In this document: positions 39,737 through 45,847 of the stretch, in pieces
Layout: every line of letters starts with the position of its first letter
Numbering within the stretch: the first letter of the stretch is position 1
Assembly: GCA_016125225.1 (NCBI GenBank)
Contig: WGME01000014.1
Span: 62,001-126,000, forward strand
From: a bacterium
GTDB lineage: Bacteria; Planctomycetota; Planctomycetia; Planctomycetales; Planctomycetaceae
Direction of reading: 5' to 3'
DNA length: 64,000 bases
Made by a program: the position numbers and the translations under genes
Notes under the pieces: model-generated
What the model was told of the DNA's origin: nothing
Seen by the model: the letters and a program-made list of their open reading frames with translations, nothing else
Databases searched by the model: none

Positions 39737-40465
39737 TTATTCGTCGATGCGGATGCGCAGGTGGCGGACTTCGAACGGGAAATCTTCGGCTTGGATGCCA
39801 ATGCTGCCGGAACTGAGGAAGTTCGGTTCGCTGGATGAAATCGGCGTGCCATTCAGTGAGACATTCAGCGCACCATCTTTCGAAACAATTTCCAGGGAAT
39901 TCCACTGACCGACCGGTTTGCGAGCGGCCTCGCGGGCCGCGCCATCATCTTTGACCACCGGCGGCTCAGCACCACCGTTCTCCTTAATCGCGGCCATCTG
40001 CACGTGCTTGCCCTGAACTTCCAGGCACAACGGCCAGATCTTCGCTTCACCGGTGATGTAGATGAGGAAGCCTGTGTTCCCTTTGAATTTGGCCTCGTCG
40101 GTCAGGTTGGCCGGTCGCGGGAACTTGTAATCAAGCTTCAATGTAAAGTTCTGGAAGCTCTCTTTGGAATAGAGGTAGCCACGCGGCTTGCCGGAGGAAA
40201 TCAAACGGTCTTGGTCTTCGGTCCAAGTATCCACTTCGGCGGGAAAGCTGACGAAATCGGCAAGCGAAAGCAACCGGAAGTCGGGCTCCAGCTCAAAGGG
40301 CGTTTCTGGTTCCGGCTCGGGGAGGGGCAGGGTGGCCTGGGTTTCCGGCTCCGGAGTGGCAGAGAGGGGTGGTGCCATCTTCGACGGCGTGGTGGTGGGG
40401 GCACACCCGGCCCAACTACCACAGATGATCAGTCCGCTCACCCAGCAGAGAATGCTTCGGTTCAT
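39737..40465 (-). CDS. DUF1080 (3-keto-disaccharide hydrolase-like) lipoprotein
   Basis: This 242-residue protein has a lipoprotein signal ending WAGC (Cys at about residue 20) and a Pro/Glu/Thr-rich linker. A DUF1080 domain starts with FRLLSLADFVSFPAEVDTW. FTLKLDYKFPRPANL, TGFLIYITGEAKIWPLCLEV, WNSLEIVSKDGALNVSLNG and IGIQAEDFPFEVRHLRI follow. DUF1080 is a concanavalin-like fold; some members hydrolyse 3-keto-glycosides, others only bind glycans. The start at 40465 is preferred over 40522 because it begins the signal. The protein is probably anchored to a membrane facing the periplasm. Confidence 0.9.
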   Translation of the reverse strand: MNRSILCWVSGLIICGSWAGCAPTTTPSKMAPPLSATPEPETQATLPLPEPEPETPFELEPDFRLLSLADFVSFPAEVDTWTEDQDRLISSGKPRGYLYSKESFQNFTLKLDYKFPRPANLTDEAKFKGNTGFLIYITGEAKIWPLCLEVQGKHVQMAAIKENGGAEPPVVKDDGAAREAARKPVGQWNSLEIVSKDGALNVSLNGTPISSSEPNFLSSGSIGIQAEDFPFEVRHLRIRIDE

Positions 40466-40576
40466 GTCAATCAACGCTTTCCGGCTCTGATAGCTGACGT
40501 CTGCCATGCCACAGTGTAACATGGCAACCAGCCCGTGGGCATCCTTCCATCTTACCTTCTCTCAGGATCATGCATC

Positions 40577-41011
40577 ATGCTGCGACGTTGGACTCCATTT
40601 CTAGTGTTGGGTGGTTTGGCAACGACGTTCTTTGTCGGCTGGCAGAGTGGTGCGGCCCATGCCGAAAACGAAGCCAAAAGCCGCGTCTTTGAACTGCGGA
40701 CCTACACCACGCTGGAAGGGCGCTTACCGGCCTTAAATGCCCGCTTCCGTGATCACACCGTGGCGCTCTTCGAAAAGCATGGCATGACCAACGTCATCTA
40801 CCTGACGCCGATGGATGACGCGAAGAAGGACAACACGCTGGTCTATCTGTTGGCCCATGACAGCCGGGACGCCGCCAAGGCTTCGTTCCAGGCGTTCGGT
40901 CAAGACCCCGAATGGAAAGCCGCCCGCGAAGCATCAGAAGCCGATTGCAAAATCGTCTCGAAAGTGGAGTCGGTCTTCTTCACGCCGACTGATTATTCAC
41001 CGATGAAGTAA
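40577..41011 (+). CDS. NIPSNAP-family protein, exported
   Basis: This 144-residue protein has a signal peptide (PFLVLGGLATTFFVGWQSGAA) and one NIPSNAP domain (about 35-140). FELRTYTTLEGRLPALNARF starts the ferredoxin-like fold, and EKHGMTNVIYLTPM and LVYLLAHDSRDAAKASFQAF follow. NIPSNAP domains are dimeric alpha/beta barrels of unclear function, often exported in Planctomycetota. AGGA nine bases before the ATG at 40577 decides the start (the frame opens at 40535). The stop is followed within six bases by an inverted REP-like pair. Confidence 0.88.
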   Translation: MLRRWTPFLVLGGLATTFFVGWQSGAAHAENEAKSRVFELRTYTTLEGRLPALNARFRDHTVALFEKHGMTNVIYLTPMDDAKKDNTLVYLLAHDSRDAAKASFQAFGQDPEWKAAREASEADCKIVSKVESVFFTPTDYSPMK

Positions 41012-41016
41012 TCTCA

Positions 41017-41090
41017 TCTTAGCCCCACGTCAGTGACGTGGGGCAGATTCACGTGTGATATTCCCCCGGGTCATTGACCCGGGGCTAAGA
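41017..41090. repeat. Inverted pair of REP-like palindromes (BIME-like)
   Basis: Two palindromes form a 74-base unit bounded by TCTTAGCCCC (41017-41026) and its exact complement GGGGCTAAGA (41081-41090). The left palindrome (41022-41044) has perfect 11-base arms GCCCCACGTCA/TGACGTGGGGC. The right (41064-41084) has 10-base arms CCCCGGGTCA/TGACCCGGGG. The arms differ at the same positions on both sides, so pairing is kept while sequence changes. It fills nearly the whole gap between the NIPSNAP gene and mtnA. Confidence 0.85.
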
Positions 41091-41097
41091 CAATAGG

Positions 41098-42168
41098 ATG
41101 GAACCCCGCTCGATGAATCCCCGCCCCGCGGTCGCCTGGATCGGCCAACTCGATGGTTATCTGCAACTGATTGACCAGACCTTGCTGCCGACGCAGGATG
41201 TGCTGATTGATTGCCGAACCGTGGAACAAGTGTGGGAAGCGATCAAGTCGCTGCGCGTGCGGGGGGCTCCGGCCATTGGAGTCGCCGCCGCTTATGGCGT
41301 GATTGTGGGCTGCCAGTCACAAGCCGAACTGCCCCGCAGTGAATTCGACGCCCGCCTGACCCACGTGCTCGACTATCTCGCAACGAGCCGACCGACTGCC
41401 GTTAATCTCTTCTGGGCGCTCGACCGGATGAAAGCGACGGCGGCGGAGCAACCGGACACGCTTCTGTCCTCAGAGCTCTTATCGCGACTGCTGGAAGAAG
41501 CCCGCACGATCGAAGTAGAAGATCGGGCCATGTGCGCCGCCATGGGTCGCTTTGGTGCCGAACTCCTGGCGAATTGCAGCGGTGTCCTCACTCACTGCAA
41601 CACCGGCGGGCTCGCCACGGCCGGTGATGGCACCGCTTTGGCGGCCATCTTCGCGGCTGCGAAGGCCAATCCCAAACTGCAGGTCTACGCCGATGAGACG
41701 CGACCGTTGTTGCAGGGGGCTCGGCTCACGGCTTGGGAACTGTTGCAGCGCGGTGTCCATGTCACCCTCATTTGCGATTCCATGGCCGCATGTGTGATGA
41801 AGCTGCGACGCGTGCAGGCCGTGATCGTCGGGGCCGATCGTATCGCCGCCAATGGCGACGCCGCGAACAAAATCGGGACGTATGGTCTTTCGGTGCTGGC
41901 GAAGGCCCACGGTATTCCGTTTTATGTCGCGGCCCCGTCCAGCACGTTCGATCTCACCTTGGAATCGGGCGAGTTGATCCCCATTGAAGAACGGGCAGCG
42001 AGCGAAATCACTAACGGGTTCGGCAAGCAGACGGCACCCACCGATTGCCCGGTCTTTAACCCAGCGTTCGATGTGGCACCCGCCGAAAATATCACCGCCA
42101 TCATCACTGAACGGGGCGTCATTCAACCGGTCACAGTCGACAATGTCCGAAAGATGATCAAAGGATAA
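41098..42168 (+). CDS. mtnA: S-methyl-5-thioribose-1-phosphate isomerase
   Basis: This 356-residue enzyme isomerises 5-methylthioribose 1-phosphate to methylthioribulose 1-phosphate in the methionine salvage pathway. LRVRGAPAIGVAAAYGV is the phosphate-binding region. GVLTHCNTGGLATAGDGTAL carries the catalytic Cys, and VIVGADRIAANGDAANKIGTY carries the catalytic Asp. PSSTFDLTLESGELIPIEER closes the domain. The length is normal. The start may be 41098, or ATG 41113 (MNPRPAVAW), which has GGAA nine bases upstream. The gene begins eight bases after the REP-like pair. No other methionine salvage gene is adjacent. Confidence 0.94.
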   Translation: MEPRSMNPRPAVAWIGQLDGYLQLIDQTLLPTQDVLIDCRTVEQVWEAIKSLRVRGAPAIGVAAAYGVIVGCQSQAELPRSEFDARLTHVLDYLATSRPTAVNLFWALDRMKATAAEQPDTLLSSELLSRLLEEARTIEVEDRAMCAAMGRFGAELLANCSGVLTHCNTGGLATAGDGTALAAIFAAAKANPKLQVYADETRPLLQGARLTAWELLQRGVHVTLICDSMAACVMKLRRVQAVIVGADRIAANGDAANKIGTYGLSVLAKAHGIPFYVAAPSSTFDLTLESGELIPIEERAASEITNGFGKQTAPTDCPVFNPAFDVAPAENITAIITERGVIQPVTVDNVRKMIKG

Positions 42169-42208
42169 GTTGGGGGAAGGGTGAAGCACGGATCGGAGTA
42201 TAGCGACG

Positions 42209-44932
42209 GTGTCGAAATCCAATCCCAGTGATCCGTCTCCTTTGTTAGCCATCCTAGACGGGGCACCGTCGCGAAATCGTTCACAGCTTCGACTTCTCTT
42301 GATCACATGGTTGGTGCGATCGTATCGGCTGCTGATCTTAGGATTCGCAGTCTGGTTAATTCATCACGCCGCTCAAACGACGGCCTCTCCGTCAGACGAT
42401 GCCGATGCAGGCATTTCGATAACTTCGGCCCGCCAGATCTTTCCACAGGCGGATCGACTGCGACCAGCGGAGCCGCAACAGAAACGTGTTGCGGTGTTAT
42501 CCGCCAGCGGGGAACTATTGGGTTATGTGTTACGGACCTCGCCGGACACAGATGACCTCGTGGGCTATACCGGACCGAATGACCTGCTGATTGGACTCTC
42601 TCCCGCTGGTGAAGTCGTCCAGGTGCGTTTGCTCGAGAGCCATGACACGGCATCGCACGTCGAAAGCATTCGGACGGCGCAAGAATTCTGGCAGCAGTTT
42701 CCCGGTTGGACACCCGGGCTGCAGCCTTTTCCAAAGATCGAAGGCGTCAGTGGCTCAACGCTGACCAGTCTGGCGATGGCAGAGGCGGTCCAGCGCCGGC
42801 TCTCTGGTGGGACAACATCACTTCGGTTTCCGGAAGCGGTCTCATTGAAAGAGGTGCAATCGTTTTTTCCTGATGCCAACTCCATCAAAGTCGATCAGCC
42901 TCGTGCTGGCTGGACTGCCGCTTTCGATGCCCAATCGGCATTACTCGGGTATGTCGTGCGAACATCACCGGCGACCGACAACCAGATCGGATATCAGGGG
43001 CCGACGGAATCATTGTTCTCCGTCTCCCCCGATCAACAGACGATTCTCGCGGTCCGCATCCGCCAGAGCTACGAAACCCCTGACTATGTTCAACGCATTG
43101 AAAACGATGCGGCTTTTCTGCATTTGCTGGCGGGACGAACTCTGGAGGATTACCGCCAGCTTGATTTCCAGTCGGCCGGCATCGAAGGGGTTTCCGGAGC
43201 AACGATCACCAGCTTTTCCATCGCCGATGGAATTCGCCGTCGACTCCGAATGGATGCCACATTCCAGGCGGAAAAAGAGACGTCATCTCGAAGCGTGAGG
43301 AATGTCACCCTACGTCAAATGGTTCTGGTGGGAATCATTGCGGGCGGACTGCTGATGACGTTCTGGACGCGTCTGCGCGGACGATGGACGCGACGCCTTT
43401 GGCAGGTCGCCGTGATCATCCTGTTTGGTTTTTGGCTGGGAGATCTGCTGTCGTTATCCCTGCTGACAGGCTGGTCGCGACATGGATTGTCAGAAAGTTC
43501 CTCCGTCGTTTTGATGGTGCTGGCAGCGGTGTCGCTGGGGATACCCTGGACCACAAAGCAACAGATGTATTGTCATCAGTTGTGCCCGCATGGTGTGGCT
43601 CAGGAGTGGTTAGGGAAGCTCCCGGTACAGAAATGGCACCTGCCGCGTAGGCTGACCCGTTGGTTATCGTTCTTTCCGAGCATCATATTGATCGTTGCCT
43701 TAGCATTGGCTGTCCTGAAACCCGGCTTCGATTTAACACAACTCGAACCGTTCGATGCCTGGTCGGTGGGGACGTTGGCCGTCGCTTCTTGTGTGATTGC
43801 GATTCTGGGATTAGCCACTTCGGTGGTGCTGCCACAGGGGTATTGCCGCTTCGGTTGCCCAACCGGGGCGTTGTTGAAATTCGTGCGTTCTCATGGCCAG
43901 GCAGAATCGTTTGGCCGACAGGAAGCGATAGCCTCCGTAGCAATCGTCGCCATCGCGGCAGTTCATTTTGCGTCATCATGGGAAACAAAAATAAACCAGG
44001 AGAAGTTGCCTCAAACATTCAGCGATCGCTTGCCGATGCCCGCCATCTCAGGTGATGCCTTCGGCACAAGCTGGTCGGTACGTCTGCGACCGAGTCAAAC
44101 GTTGCCTGTGGAACTGCGCGAGTCACTGTCGGCAGAATTGGTCCGCATCGAACGAAAACTGTCGCACTGGCAGCCCGAGTCGGAAACTTCATTGTTCAAT
44201 AGCAGCGACACCACGCTGGAACTCGAAGTTTCCGAGGAGTTAATCCAACTCCTGCAGCAGGCTAAAGAGACCAGTGAGCTGACTCAGGGAAAGTACGACA
44301 TCACCGTCTCGCCGTTGGTGGATTTGTGGGGCTATGGTCCTGCGCGTCGCACGGGGGTGCCTACCGATGACGAAATCGCCACGGCCCTGGACCGCGTTGG
44401 TTGGAACAATCTGCATATCGATGCGGAATACCATTCACTTCGGAAAGACCACCCGCAGTTGCAAATCGATCTCGGCTCATTCCTGCAGGGCTATGCGGCC
44501 GATCGACTCGCTGTGTTGCTATCGGCCGGGCAGATCGACGAGTTTCTGATCGACGTCGGTGGGGAACTGCGGGCACGTGGTTTCTGGTCTGTCGCGATTG
44601 ATGATCCGCACGATCCGCAGCGGCCGTTGCTCACATTGAAATTGAAAGACCAGGCTTTGGCGACCAGTGGCACATACCGTCCCGGTTTGAATGGCGAAAC
44701 GACCACGCGGCATCTGTTGTCACCGGTAACCGGCCGCCCCATCGTGACCGATTTCGTGCTGTGTGCGGTGATCGCTCCGATCGCTTGTGATGCCGACCGG
44801 TGGGCCACCGCGTACTTGTCTCTGCCGGTTGACGAGGCCTTGTCACTGGCCGAATCACGGCACGACGCGGTCTTGCTGGTCACACAAAATGGTCTCATCC
44901 AAAAGACCTCGTGGTGGCCCCGTGACCAATGA
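42209..44932 (+). CDS. FMN_bind x2 / NosR-like membrane / ApbE fusion
   Basis: This 907-residue fusion is predicted to move electrons across or along the membrane and to flavinylate itself. A membrane helix (about 28-52) is followed by two FMN-binding domains. Their acceptor motifs are GVSGSTLTS (Thr184) and GVSGATITS (Thr332). Five or six helices (368-590) follow, with YCHQLCP (Cys455, Cys459) and YCRFGCP (Cys546, Cys550) as in NosR/4Fe-4S-type membrane proteins. An ApbE domain (about 612-895) has LQIDLGSFLQGYAADR, DVGGELRARG, ATSGTYRP, HLLSPVTGRP and CDADRWATAY (Mg ligands Asp863 and Thr867). The lysine usual in D-L-G-x-x-x-K-G is Gln759. The extra CxxCxxCxxxCP ferredoxin motifs of NosR are absent. 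No nos genes are nearby. Confidence 0.92.
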   Translation: MSKSNPSDPSPLLAILDGAPSRNRSQLRLLLITWLVRSYRLLILGFAVWLIHHAAQTTASPSDDADAGISITSARQIFPQADRLRPAEPQQKRVAVLSASGELLGYVLRTSPDTDDLVGYTGPNDLLIGLSPAGEVVQVRLLESHDTASHVESIRTAQEFWQQFPGWTPGLQPFPKIEGVSGSTLTSLAMAEAVQRRLSGGTTSLRFPEAVSLKEVQSFFPDANSIKVDQPRAGWTAAFDAQSALLGYVVRTSPATDNQIGYQGPTESLFSVSPDQQTILAVRIRQSYETPDYVQRIENDAAFLHLLAGRTLEDYRQLDFQSAGIEGVSGATITSFSIADGIRRRLRMDATFQAEKETSSRSVRNVTLRQMVLVGIIAGGLLMTFWTRLRGRWTRRLWQVAVIILFGFWLGDLLSLSLLTGWSRHGLSESSSVVLMVLAAVSLGIPWTTKQQMYCHQLCPHGVAQEWLGKLPVQKWHLPRRLTRWLSFFPSIILIVALALAVLKPGFDLTQLEPFDAWSVGTLAVASCVIAILGLATSVVLPQGYCRFGCPTGALLKFVRSHGQAESFGRQEAIASVAIVAIAAVHFASSWETKINQEKLPQTFSDRLPMPAISGDAFGTSWSVRLRPSQTLPVELRESLSAELVRIERKLSHWQPESETSLFNSSDTTLELEVSEELIQLLQQAKETSELTQGKYDITVSPLVDLWGYGPARRTGVPTDDEIATALDRVGWNNLHIDAEYHSLRKDHPQLQIDLGSFLQGYAADRLAVLLSAGQIDEFLIDVGGELRARGFWSVAIDDPHDPQRPLLTLKLKDQALATSGTYRPGLNGETTTRHLLSPVTGRPIVTDFVLCAVIAPIACDADRWATAYLSLPVDEALSLAESRHDAVLLVTQNGLIQKTSWWPRDQ

Positions 44933-45037
44933 TACATCCATTCCGCCCAGTATCGTGAACCTGGCGAGGCTTCCGGCTGTCCGCAACGGTGTGGCATTGG
45001 CAGAATGGGGTGCCCGATCTGAAGGAGATATCATCTC

Positions 45038-45847
45038 ATGCCCGGTGTAAAATGTTGGCAGGTCGATGCCTTTACGAATCAGCCGTTCGGTGGCAATCCG
45101 GCAGCCATCTGCTGGCTCGAAGACGCCGCCGATTCGGCTTGGATGCAATTCGTGGCCGCGGAGATGAACCTGTCCGAGACAGCGTTCGTGCGACGACTGG
45201 AGACGGATCTCGAATTGCGGTGGTTCACGCCCACCGTCGAAGTTGACTTGTGTGGTCATGCCACGTTGGCCACAGCTCACGCCCTATGGTCTGCGAACAT
45301 CTTGGAATCAACGCAACCGCTGCGGTTTCAGACGCGGAGTGGTTTGCTGACCTGCACGCGCGACGGCGATTTTATCGAACTCGATTTCCCGGCCACACCG
45401 CCGACGGACATTGACCTGCCGAATGGGTTGGCAGAGGCGTTGGGAGCCAAGCCGATCGCGGTGGGGCAAAGCCGCTTTGATCTCGTCGCTGTGTACGAAT
45501 CCGCCGCGACGGTGCGTCACCTGAAGCCAGATTTTCGACAATTGGAACGCTTTCCCGTGCGGGGCGTAATCATCACGGCTCCAGCGGACGAACCGGGCTT
45601 CGATTTCGTCTCGCGTTTCTTCGCTCCCAACGTCGGTGTCGATGAAGACCCCGTGTGCGGTTCGGCCCACTGCTGCCTCACCCCTTATTGGGCTGCTCGA
45701 CTCGACAAAGCGGACCTGATGGCCCATCAAGTCTCAGCACGCGGCGGGGTACTCCGTTTGAAACATCGAAATGACCGAGTCATTCTCGGCGGCCAAGCCG
45801 TAACTGTCTGGCAGGGGGAACTGACCAGTGCCGCGGGCCGTCGCTAA
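45038..45847 (+). CDS. PhzF-family isomerase
   Basis: This 269-residue protein has the PhzF/diaminopimelate-epimerase fold. QVDAFTNQPFGGNPAAICWL starts the first half. MNLSETAFV holds the catalytic Glu47, equivalent to the active-site Glu of PhzF. FTPTVEVDLCGHATLATAHAL follows, and EDPVCGSAHCCLTPYW is the second-half signature. PhzF itself isomerises a phenazine precursor, but most family members have unknown substrates and no phenazine genes are present here. AAGGAG lies ten bases before the ATG. It converges on the epimerase gene, with 24 bases between stops. Confidence 0.92.
   Translation: MPGVKCWQVDAFTNQPFGGNPAAICWLEDAADSAWMQFVAAEMNLSETAFVRRLETDLELRWFTPTVEVDLCGHATLATAHALWSANILESTQPLRFQTRSGLLTCTRDGDFIELDFPATPPTDIDLPNGLAEALGAKPIAVGQSRFDLVAVYESAATVRHLKPDFRQLERFPVRGVIITAPADEPGFDFVSRFFAPNVGVDEDPVCGSAHCCLTPYWAARLDKADLMAHQVSARGGVLRLKHRNDRVILGGQAVTVWQGELTSAAGRR

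Follow-up and report, generated by a model that had tools for sequence, protein, structure and literature searches.

A planctomycetal protein that joins two FMN_bind domains and a membrane cysteine core to ApbE, and an exported FAD_oxidored enzyme as its likely redox partner

The window analysed here, 64,000 nucleotides of contig WGME01000014.1 (assembly GCA_016125225.1, positions 62,001 to 126,000) from a member of the Planctomycetaceae, encodes at 42209-44932 a single protein of 907 amino acids in which two FMN_bind acceptor domains for flavin mononucleotide (FMN), a multi-helix membrane part and a C-terminal ApbE flavin transferase are joined. What might such a protein do? We think it reasonably probable that it is a self-loading, two-FMN membrane carrier of the NapH/PceC-like type, linking an exported enzyme of the FAD_oxidored family (FAD, flavin adenine dinucleotide; Pfam PF12831) to quinone and the respiratory chain. 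This reading is supported by the domains, the predicted topology, the conservation of acceptor and cysteine residues, the recurrence of the fusion, and the co-occurrence and adjacency of the FAD enzyme. The class of flavinylated membrane carriers is already known; the protein described here is a variant with two FMN domains, its own ApbE and a likely FAD_oxidored partner.

The open reading frame starts with GTG, has a GGAG 10 nucleotides upstream of the start and runs for 907 codons with no internal stop. An initial annotation of this DNA had proposed the domain composition and asked for a domain search, which bears it out: FMN_bind scores 61.4 bits over two stretches (cut-off 22), Fer4_5 35.0 bits over two stretches (cut-off 22) and ApbE 224.5 bits (cut-off 25.6). 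The features of the gene are as follows.

42209..44932, + strand: whole gene, fusion of two FMN_bind domains, a Fer4_5-type membrane domain and ApbE, 907 amino acids (open reading frame, Pfam, predicted model)
42293..42364, + strand: predicted transmembrane helix 1, residues ~29-52, running from inside to outside (hydropathy; model helix 22-58)
42386..42805, + strand: FMN_bind domain 1, residues ~60-199, RnfG-like fold (Pfam; Z 12.0 to RnfG 9eri_G over residues 60-200)
42758..42760, + strand: Thr184, predicted FMN attachment site in the motif EGVSGSTLT
42830..43285, + strand: FMN_bind domain 2, residues ~208-359, NqrC-like fold (Pfam; Z 10.2 to NqrC 4xhf_C)
43202..43204, + strand: Thr332, predicted FMN attachment site in the motif EGVSGATIT
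43313..43990, + strand: six more predicted transmembrane helices, residues ~369-594 (hydropathy, charge; model helices)
43571..43588, + strand: CxxxCP pair 1, residues 455-460, Cys455 and Cys459, predicted cytoplasmic side (motif)
43844..43861, + strand: CxxxCP pair 2, residues 546-551, Cys546 and Cys550, predicted cytoplasmic side (motif)
44027..44929, + strand: ApbE domain, a FAD:protein FMN transferase, spanning residues 607-907 on the predicted outer side (Pfam, 224.5 bits; fold, Z 37.0 to 6nxi)
44486..44488, + strand: Gln760, in place of the Lys of the ApbE motif, Glu in E. coli (motif, alignments)
44795..44809, + strand: Asp863 and Thr867, which align with the metal ligands D280 and T284 in Ftp of E. 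coli (alignment; ligands as given in the part of PMC4767422 on the metal site)

Flavinylation motifs, [ST]G[AS]T-x-[ST], which we take to be the FMN_bind acceptor motif, start at residues 178 and 326, with no third in the protein, and the acceptor threonines had been numbered correctly. Across 60 acceptor-bearing alignment rows, position 184 is Thr in 59 and Ser in one, and position 332 is Thr in all 60. The predicted model, built with 72 sequences from the window and related loci, has a mean pLDDT (predicted local distance difference test) of 89.8 and a pTM (predicted template modelling score) of 0.67. In a fold search with this model the FMN domains also match CbFMN4 domain 1 (Z 8.6) and SaFMN3 domain 2 (Z 7.2), and the ApbE part aligns over 295 residues with Vibrio cholerae ApbE (6nxi; root-mean-square deviation, rmsd, 2.4); no structure was listed for the membrane part, for which the search is uninformative.

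The membrane part has the multiple helices and the two CxxxCP pairs that the initial annotation had seen. Both pairs are Cys in 60 of 60 acceptor-bearing rows and account for four of the seven cysteines of the protein. Seven hydrophobic segments (residues ~29-52, 370-386, 398-419, 430-446, 486-503, 518-542 and 574-592) were read by hand, together with helix count and charge, rather than with a dedicated predictor; the loops on the Cys-pair side are rich in arginine, in keeping with the positive-inside rule. If the N-terminus lies inside, the two FMN domains and ApbE are predicted to face outward and the two Cys pairs to face the cytoplasm. The proposal that acceptors and transferase share the outer face is supported by helix count, by charge and by the model, and since they are predicted to share that side, self-flavinylation by the fused ApbE is plausible.

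Is the fused ApbE likely to be active? Equivalences to E. coli Ftp are our reading of an alignment. In the Ftp enzyme, metal site 1 consists of D280, T284, D283 and the backbone of T166, as the section of PMC4767422 on that site describes. The earlier claim that the magnesium ligands are kept holds for Asp863 and Thr867 and fails at the D283 position, which is occupied by Ala866. Arg824 aligns with R240, Trp654 stands at Y60 and Gln760 at E169; contacts of E169 and R240 are described in the same paper, and FAD-binding Ftps are described as having an aromatic residue (Tyr) close to the flavin. A Gln in place of the usual Lys is indeed present, at residue 760 rather than 759, and the view of it as an oddity had to be dropped. 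Position 760 is Gln in 10, Glu in two and Lys in one of 13 fused rows (the window plus 12; separate ApbE rows, partly misaligned, were excluded), and the E. coli transferase has Glu, so that Gln760 is no argument against activity. In the same rows His835 and Arg824 are invariant, and Asp863 and Thr867 are each kept in 12 of 13.

The fusion recurs. A profile scan of genome contigs with the acceptor alignment gave a best 80 loci from Planctomycetota and Verrucomicrobiota, which is not a census. The survey of domain order that had been suggested was made on these: 12 carry a fused ApbE (ApbE above 100 bits), and since the relatives were fetched by the acceptor part alone, the architecture is not a chance one. 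In 14 other loci of the 80 ApbE is a separate gene, 11 times directly downstream of the acceptor (39-208 nucleotides) and three times upstream of the FAD enzyme. Two further loci have a partial ApbE only (L115, 58 bits; L178, 23 bits); they are not among the 12 and were scored unfused in the acceptor tree, and the ApbE piece of L115 carried the fused label in the ApbE tree. That acceptor tree, of 88 acceptors, was made by a quick method, and 29 of its 85 inner branches are weak. On it the fused rows require a minimum of three changes when set against the separate-ApbE group, and of five when set against all rows. The window falls into a 13-row clade with an SH-aLRT (Shimodaira-Hasegawa-like approximate likelihood ratio test) value of 99, in which 11 rows are fused and both phyla are represented. 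The G028 fusion stands apart from the window clade: the acceptor tree and the ApbE tree alike place it next to the separate, operonic ApbEs of G409 and G034. The simplest account of the acceptor-ApbE proteins is fusion of neighbouring genes. Another fusion, of 900 amino acids with the ApbE confirmed, is encoded in G161. Among 59 related genomes a full-length match is found in three (G000, G001 and G028) and some match in all 59, frequently by the ApbE part alone.

Other forms of the acceptor and of ApbE were observed on the side. Acceptor open frames of 871 and 802 amino acids in G563 and G692 suggest, from their length, additional ApbE fusions in Verrucomicrobiota. In L097 and L112 (g54 genomes) the acceptor has only 444-453 amino acids and its match begins at model position ~198, as would be expected of a protein with one FMN domain; a FAD enzyme adjoins it. 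At L039:4600-5943 (G032; L142 is the same locus, and L126 and L159 share the gene order) the separate ApbE of a FAD_oxidored-acceptor cluster ends in an NqrM domain (29.5 bits, cut-off 22).

The initial annotation left electron donor and acceptor unidentified. A partner can now be proposed, and for its substrate and the direction of electron flow we still rely on inference. The commonest conserved gene beside the acceptor encodes a FAD_oxidored protein of ~755 amino acids. It is present in 64 of the 106 loci that were clustered; the runner-up among the families that look real, which we read as sulfatase-like, is found in 16 of 106 and at scattered positions. FAD_oxidored lies within 300 nucleotides of the acceptor on the same strand in 46 of the best 80 loci, and at about 0.75-2 kb in three more. 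In L038 it lies 834 nucleotides upstream. Counting those of the 80 loci with at least 2300 nucleotides upstream, direct adjacency is found in 43 of 67. In G001, a genus-mate of the window, the matched regions of acceptor and FAD enzyme are 151 nucleotides apart. By a hydropathy threshold the N-termini of 42 of 43 FAD enzymes are export-signal-like, and the flavinylation motif is absent from 42 of 43. The copy in the window's own genome has 777 amino acids, lies on contig C27 (223184-225511) and is 54% identical to the G040 query.

Co-occurrence is stricter than adjacency. With two to four candidates scored per genome in the phylum draws, every strong-acceptor genome of the two phyla has the FAD enzyme (48/48), as against 5/632 of the others (680 genomes in all). 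Among 392 Planctomycetota an acceptor above 330 bits is accompanied by a FAD enzyme of at least 790 bits in 35/35 genomes, as against 3/357 of the rest, the exceptions being G392, G200 and G074 (the last with a weak acceptor match, and adjacent). For the 288 Verrucomicrobiota the corresponding figures are 13/13 and 2/275 (G468 and G481). At E<=1e-30 the acceptor is found in 41 of the 392 Planctomycetota, and 36 of these 41 have a FAD enzyme above 1000 bits, or two pieces of one in G326; the five lacking it (G093, G108, G145, G351 and G371) are weak matches or incomplete genomes. Of the 351 acceptor-negative Planctomycetota, G392 has a match above 1000 bits and G200 a piece at 840. G029, congeneric with the fusion-bearing G161, has neither acceptor nor FAD enzyme. 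By coordinates, 26/36 planctomycetal and 6/13 verrucomicrobial pairs are adjacent. Thirteen further verrucomicrobial acceptor matches score below 160 bits and extend over no more than the second FMN domain and the membrane part; a FAD enzyme of at least 790 bits accompanies none of the 13, and G472 and G597 have weaker relatives. Where a locus had no recognised adjacent copy, 27 of 28 genomes matched the FAD enzyme at E<=1e-100 (in 22 of the 27 the score exceeded 1000 bits), and G459 (L190) had no match. The 28 genomes were drawn from 31 loci, leaving out L124 and L189 (abutting fragments of the enzyme, of 94 and 108 bits) and L166, which shares a metagenome bin with L157. A fragment of 53 bits likewise abuts in L132, whose genome was among the 28. 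Some of the 27 matches are incomplete or run up to a contig edge, so that a few of them could turn out to be adjacent. From co-occurrence and adjacency in two phyla, the exported FAD_oxidored enzyme is likely, though unproven, to be the redox partner of the fusion protein.

Several observations weigh against this picture. The FAD enzyme is unlinked to the fusion gene in the window's own genome, 24 of 67 loci are without an adjacent copy, and 68 of the best 80 acceptors lie outside clear ApbE fusions. The 330- and 790-bit limits were chosen after the scores were seen; under the looser acceptor rule of E<=1e-30 the FAD enzyme accompanies 36/41 Planctomycetota and 13/26 Verrucomicrobiota. At E<=1e-100, 25 of the 351 Planctomycetota that are negative for the acceptor have some relative of the FAD enzyme, as do 59 of the 275 Verrucomicrobiota that lack a strong acceptor, and because the genomes are related, the Fisher values of the co-occurrence (7e-47 and 9e-21) overstate independence.

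How does the protein compare with characterised systems? The NapH-like systems number 2465 clusters; in most of them an FMN domain stands at the N-terminus, and the reactions of the majority are unknown, according to the relevant passages of PMC8238504. These passages describe a multi-helix PF12801 protein, encoded in flavinylation gene clusters, whose outward FMN-binding domain is N-terminal; the fusion protein shares these traits through its Fer4_5 match, several helices and an FMN domain predicted to be extracytosolic. It differs in having two FMN domains and ApbE within the chain, and in its proposed partner, a FAD enzyme of the PF12831 family. Proteins with more than one FMN domain per chain are described in parts of PMC8238504 and PMC10339131; a membrane Cys core and ApbE in the same chain are not described in the PMC8238504 section on such proteins. 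PceC and RdhC proteins combine an FMN domain with six helices and two CX3CP motifs, and in PceC the FMN domain lies between helices 1 and 2, with its outside location shown experimentally, as set out in portions of PMC5928378. The fusion protein shares the outside FMN position between helices 1 and 2 (here predicted), the multiple helices and the two CX3CP motifs, and differs in its two FMN domains, seven helices, ApbE and conserved FAD_oxidored neighbour. This neighbour is the single frequent one in the 106 clustered loci; rdhA was not searched by name, nearby or genome-wide.

NosR has C-terminal ferredoxin-type Cys motifs in addition to an FMN_bind domain and CxxxCP membrane core like those found here. 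The initial annotation rightly noted that the ferredoxin motifs are absent; their absence is no oddity, being normal for proteins of the PceC/RdhC type as these are described above. The NCBIfam NosR model scores 42.3 bits against a cut-off of 1000, and with the motifs missing an identity with NosR was rejected. RnfG and NqrC were rejected likewise (rnfG 49.4 bits, cut-off 102; nqrC 12.4, cut-off 144). The window's genome (6.35 Mb, 42 contigs, completeness rated 100%) yielded no FMN_bind match beyond the two in this protein, which fits the earlier remark that no nos, rnf or nqr genes lie nearby. In a trypanosomatid fumarate reductase ApbE is fused to its own flavinylation target, as relevant text of PMC12052999 relates. 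In the fusion protein, too, a single chain holds both transferase and acceptor, and the two are predicted to lie on one side of the membrane; that reductase, however, is glycosomal/intracellular with an N-terminal ApbE, whereas here a bacterial membrane electron carrier has a C-terminal one.

Open literature searches, with supplements and most subscription papers outside their scope, returned neither a bacterial membrane acceptor-ApbE fusion nor a PF12831 partner, and a term look-up in the main texts of PMC8238504 and PMC10979944 found neither. The main text of PMC8238504 does not contain 'fused', 'fusion', 'Planctomyc' or 'Verrucomicrob'; its supplementary tables, which possibly list members, were outside the scope. 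For PF12831/FAD_oxidored these searches gave only a Brucella flavoproteome paper, and no paper joining a FAD-dependent oxidoreductase, xanthan lyase and Planctomycetes was found. The golvesin papers found are unrelated, to judge by titles and the starts of abstracts; a Thermogutta sugar paper contains 'FAD' 0 times, and the portion of PMC4334474 covered does not mention NosR.

We picture the mechanism as follows. After membrane insertion, ApbE would take FAD in a Mg-dependent manner and move FMN to Thr184 and Thr332 of its own chain or of a neighbouring copy. The two FMNs would then carry electrons between the exported FAD_oxidored enzyme (encoded on contig C27 here) and the membrane part, which the cytoplasmic CxxxCP pairs, with whatever cofactor they may hold, and a bound quinone would connect to the respiratory chain. 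Flow would most likely be inward, with a substrate oxidised on the far side of the membrane from the cytoplasm and its electrons passed on to the quinone pool. This preference is weak, and it draws on a carbohydrate-type end domain of the FAD enzyme and on a conserved neighbouring gene in five verrucomicrobial loci, of which both tested members are LacI-type regulators.

Outward flow, in which quinol reduces the FMNs and the exported FAD enzyme then reduces an external acceptor, as in PceC, NosR and fumarate-reductase-like proposals, is to our minds a serious though unlikely alternative. It has precedent in the characterised PceC/NosR-type systems, which supply reductases (PMC8238504 and sections of PMC5928378), and the predicted Rossmann core of the FAD enzyme resembles flavocytochrome c3 and urocanate reductase, among many others, at Z about 16. 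Thioredoxin reductases, lipoamide dehydrogenases and Thi4 score the same Z, however, so the fold does not discriminate. The search with the predicted model (mean pLDDT 85.1) left Rossmann-type flavoproteins of many functions tied at Z about 15.6-17, with 992 of 1000 chains at Z of at least 8, and so gave no specific relative and did not reveal the substrate. Its top match is xanthan lyase 6f2p, with an rmsd of 25.5 in this search; Foldseek places the end domain at an rmsd of 2.0 over 138 columns. Family assignment also speaks, weakly, against outward flow: the L042 enzyme scores 239.5 bits with PF12831, whereas PF00890 is just above its cut-off (22.9 against 20.4 bits, residues 185-221). Both FAD_oxidored enzymes tested have a Golvesin_C domain at the C-terminus, and this xanthan-lyase-like end gives a weak hint of a carbohydrate-side substrate; the LacI-type regulators beside unlinked verrucomicrobial copies give another.

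Around these two hints some side observations can be set. Five unlinked verrucomicrobial FAD enzymes (L207-L211) adjoin a conserved gene, and both members of it that were tested (L208 and L210) are LacI-family regulators; L208, L210 and L211 also have a PF06439-like gene in the locus. In G698, G735, G712, G639 and G676 the adjacent FAD enzyme frames have 612-647 amino acids and the match stops near position 600, so that they are probably without the Golvesin_C end; with that end apparently missing in some adjacent enzymes, the carbohydrate-type domain may not be essential. A 3-keto-sugar idea, in which the FAD enzyme feeds PF06439 hydrolases, had been prompted by a PF06439 gene in the window and three more near the unlinked verrucomicrobial FAD enzymes. 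It was not supported: a home-made model, using 4 of 8 training stretches as the other four contained stops, found the family in 2/80 acceptor loci and 3/20 FAD-enzyme loci, and is insensitive, having missed the window's own PF06439 gene.

That the fused ApbE works mainly in trans or is inactive, with the FMNs loaded by one of the genome's two other ApbEs (G000:C35:55398 and G000:C19:140664), is improbable in our view. In the ApbE tree both of these lie far from the fused ApbE. Besides their presence, it counts in favour of this reading that Gln760 and Ala866 deviate from the common residues or the E. coli ligands. Against it stand the conservation of the active site among fused proteins described above, and the recurrent fusion and adjacent separate ApbE genes, which point to a working pair; since the search of the genome yielded only the two FMN_bind matches in this protein, it gave no further FMN_bind target for the fused ApbE. 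We give similarly little credence to the fusion protein being a maturation or assembly factor of the exported FAD enzyme rather than its catalytic electron partner: text of PMC12052999 calls the flavinylation of NosR by ApbE essential if nitrous oxide reductase is to mature, and the strict co-occurrence would fit a dedicated factor equally well, but two FMNs and a transmembrane Cys-pair core exceed what a flavin supplier needs (an argument rather than data), and L127, L162 and L168 have acceptor and ApbE without a FAD enzyme next door.

The immediate surroundings of the gene comprise the following.

39737..40522: 3-keto-disaccharide hydrolase-like gene, PF06439 (Pfam); the window's genome has 25 PF06439 matches
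41098..42168: IF-2B family (MtnA-like) gene, ending 40 nucleotides before the fusion gene (Pfam)
45038..45847: PhzF-like gene, downstream of the fusion gene (Pfam)

An operon of the fusion gene with its MtnA-like and PhzF-like neighbours was considered and rejected. No such family recurs among the 25 neighbour clusters listed from loci other than the window, and we therefore claim no functional meaning for these neighbours. A scan of 41000-45200 of the window gave no promoter-like site (1.4 expected) and three terminator-like sites (4.1 expected), and is uninformative.

What would a carrier of this kind mean for its bearers? More tentatively than for the protein itself, we propose a respiratory module, undescribed so far and common to Planctomycetota and Verrucomicrobiota, in which an exported FAD_oxidored dehydrogenase, probably for sugars or glycans, would pass electrons through two FMNs and a PceC-like core to quinone. 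The module would have become self-maturing by repeated absorption of ApbE in several lineages, and with ApbE absorbed into the carrier it would need no separate flavin-loading gene. The partnership, holding in two phyla, points to one specific exported enzyme for a system of the NapH-like type. The recurrent acceptor-ApbE fusion would allow within-chain flavinylation in bacteria to be tested with one gene, and it might serve in engineering as a covalent flavoprotein that loads itself. Planctomycetota and Verrucomicrobiota are major degraders of polysaccharides, and an exported dehydrogenase wired to respiration would, if our reading is true, add a route of carbon oxidation in these phyla.

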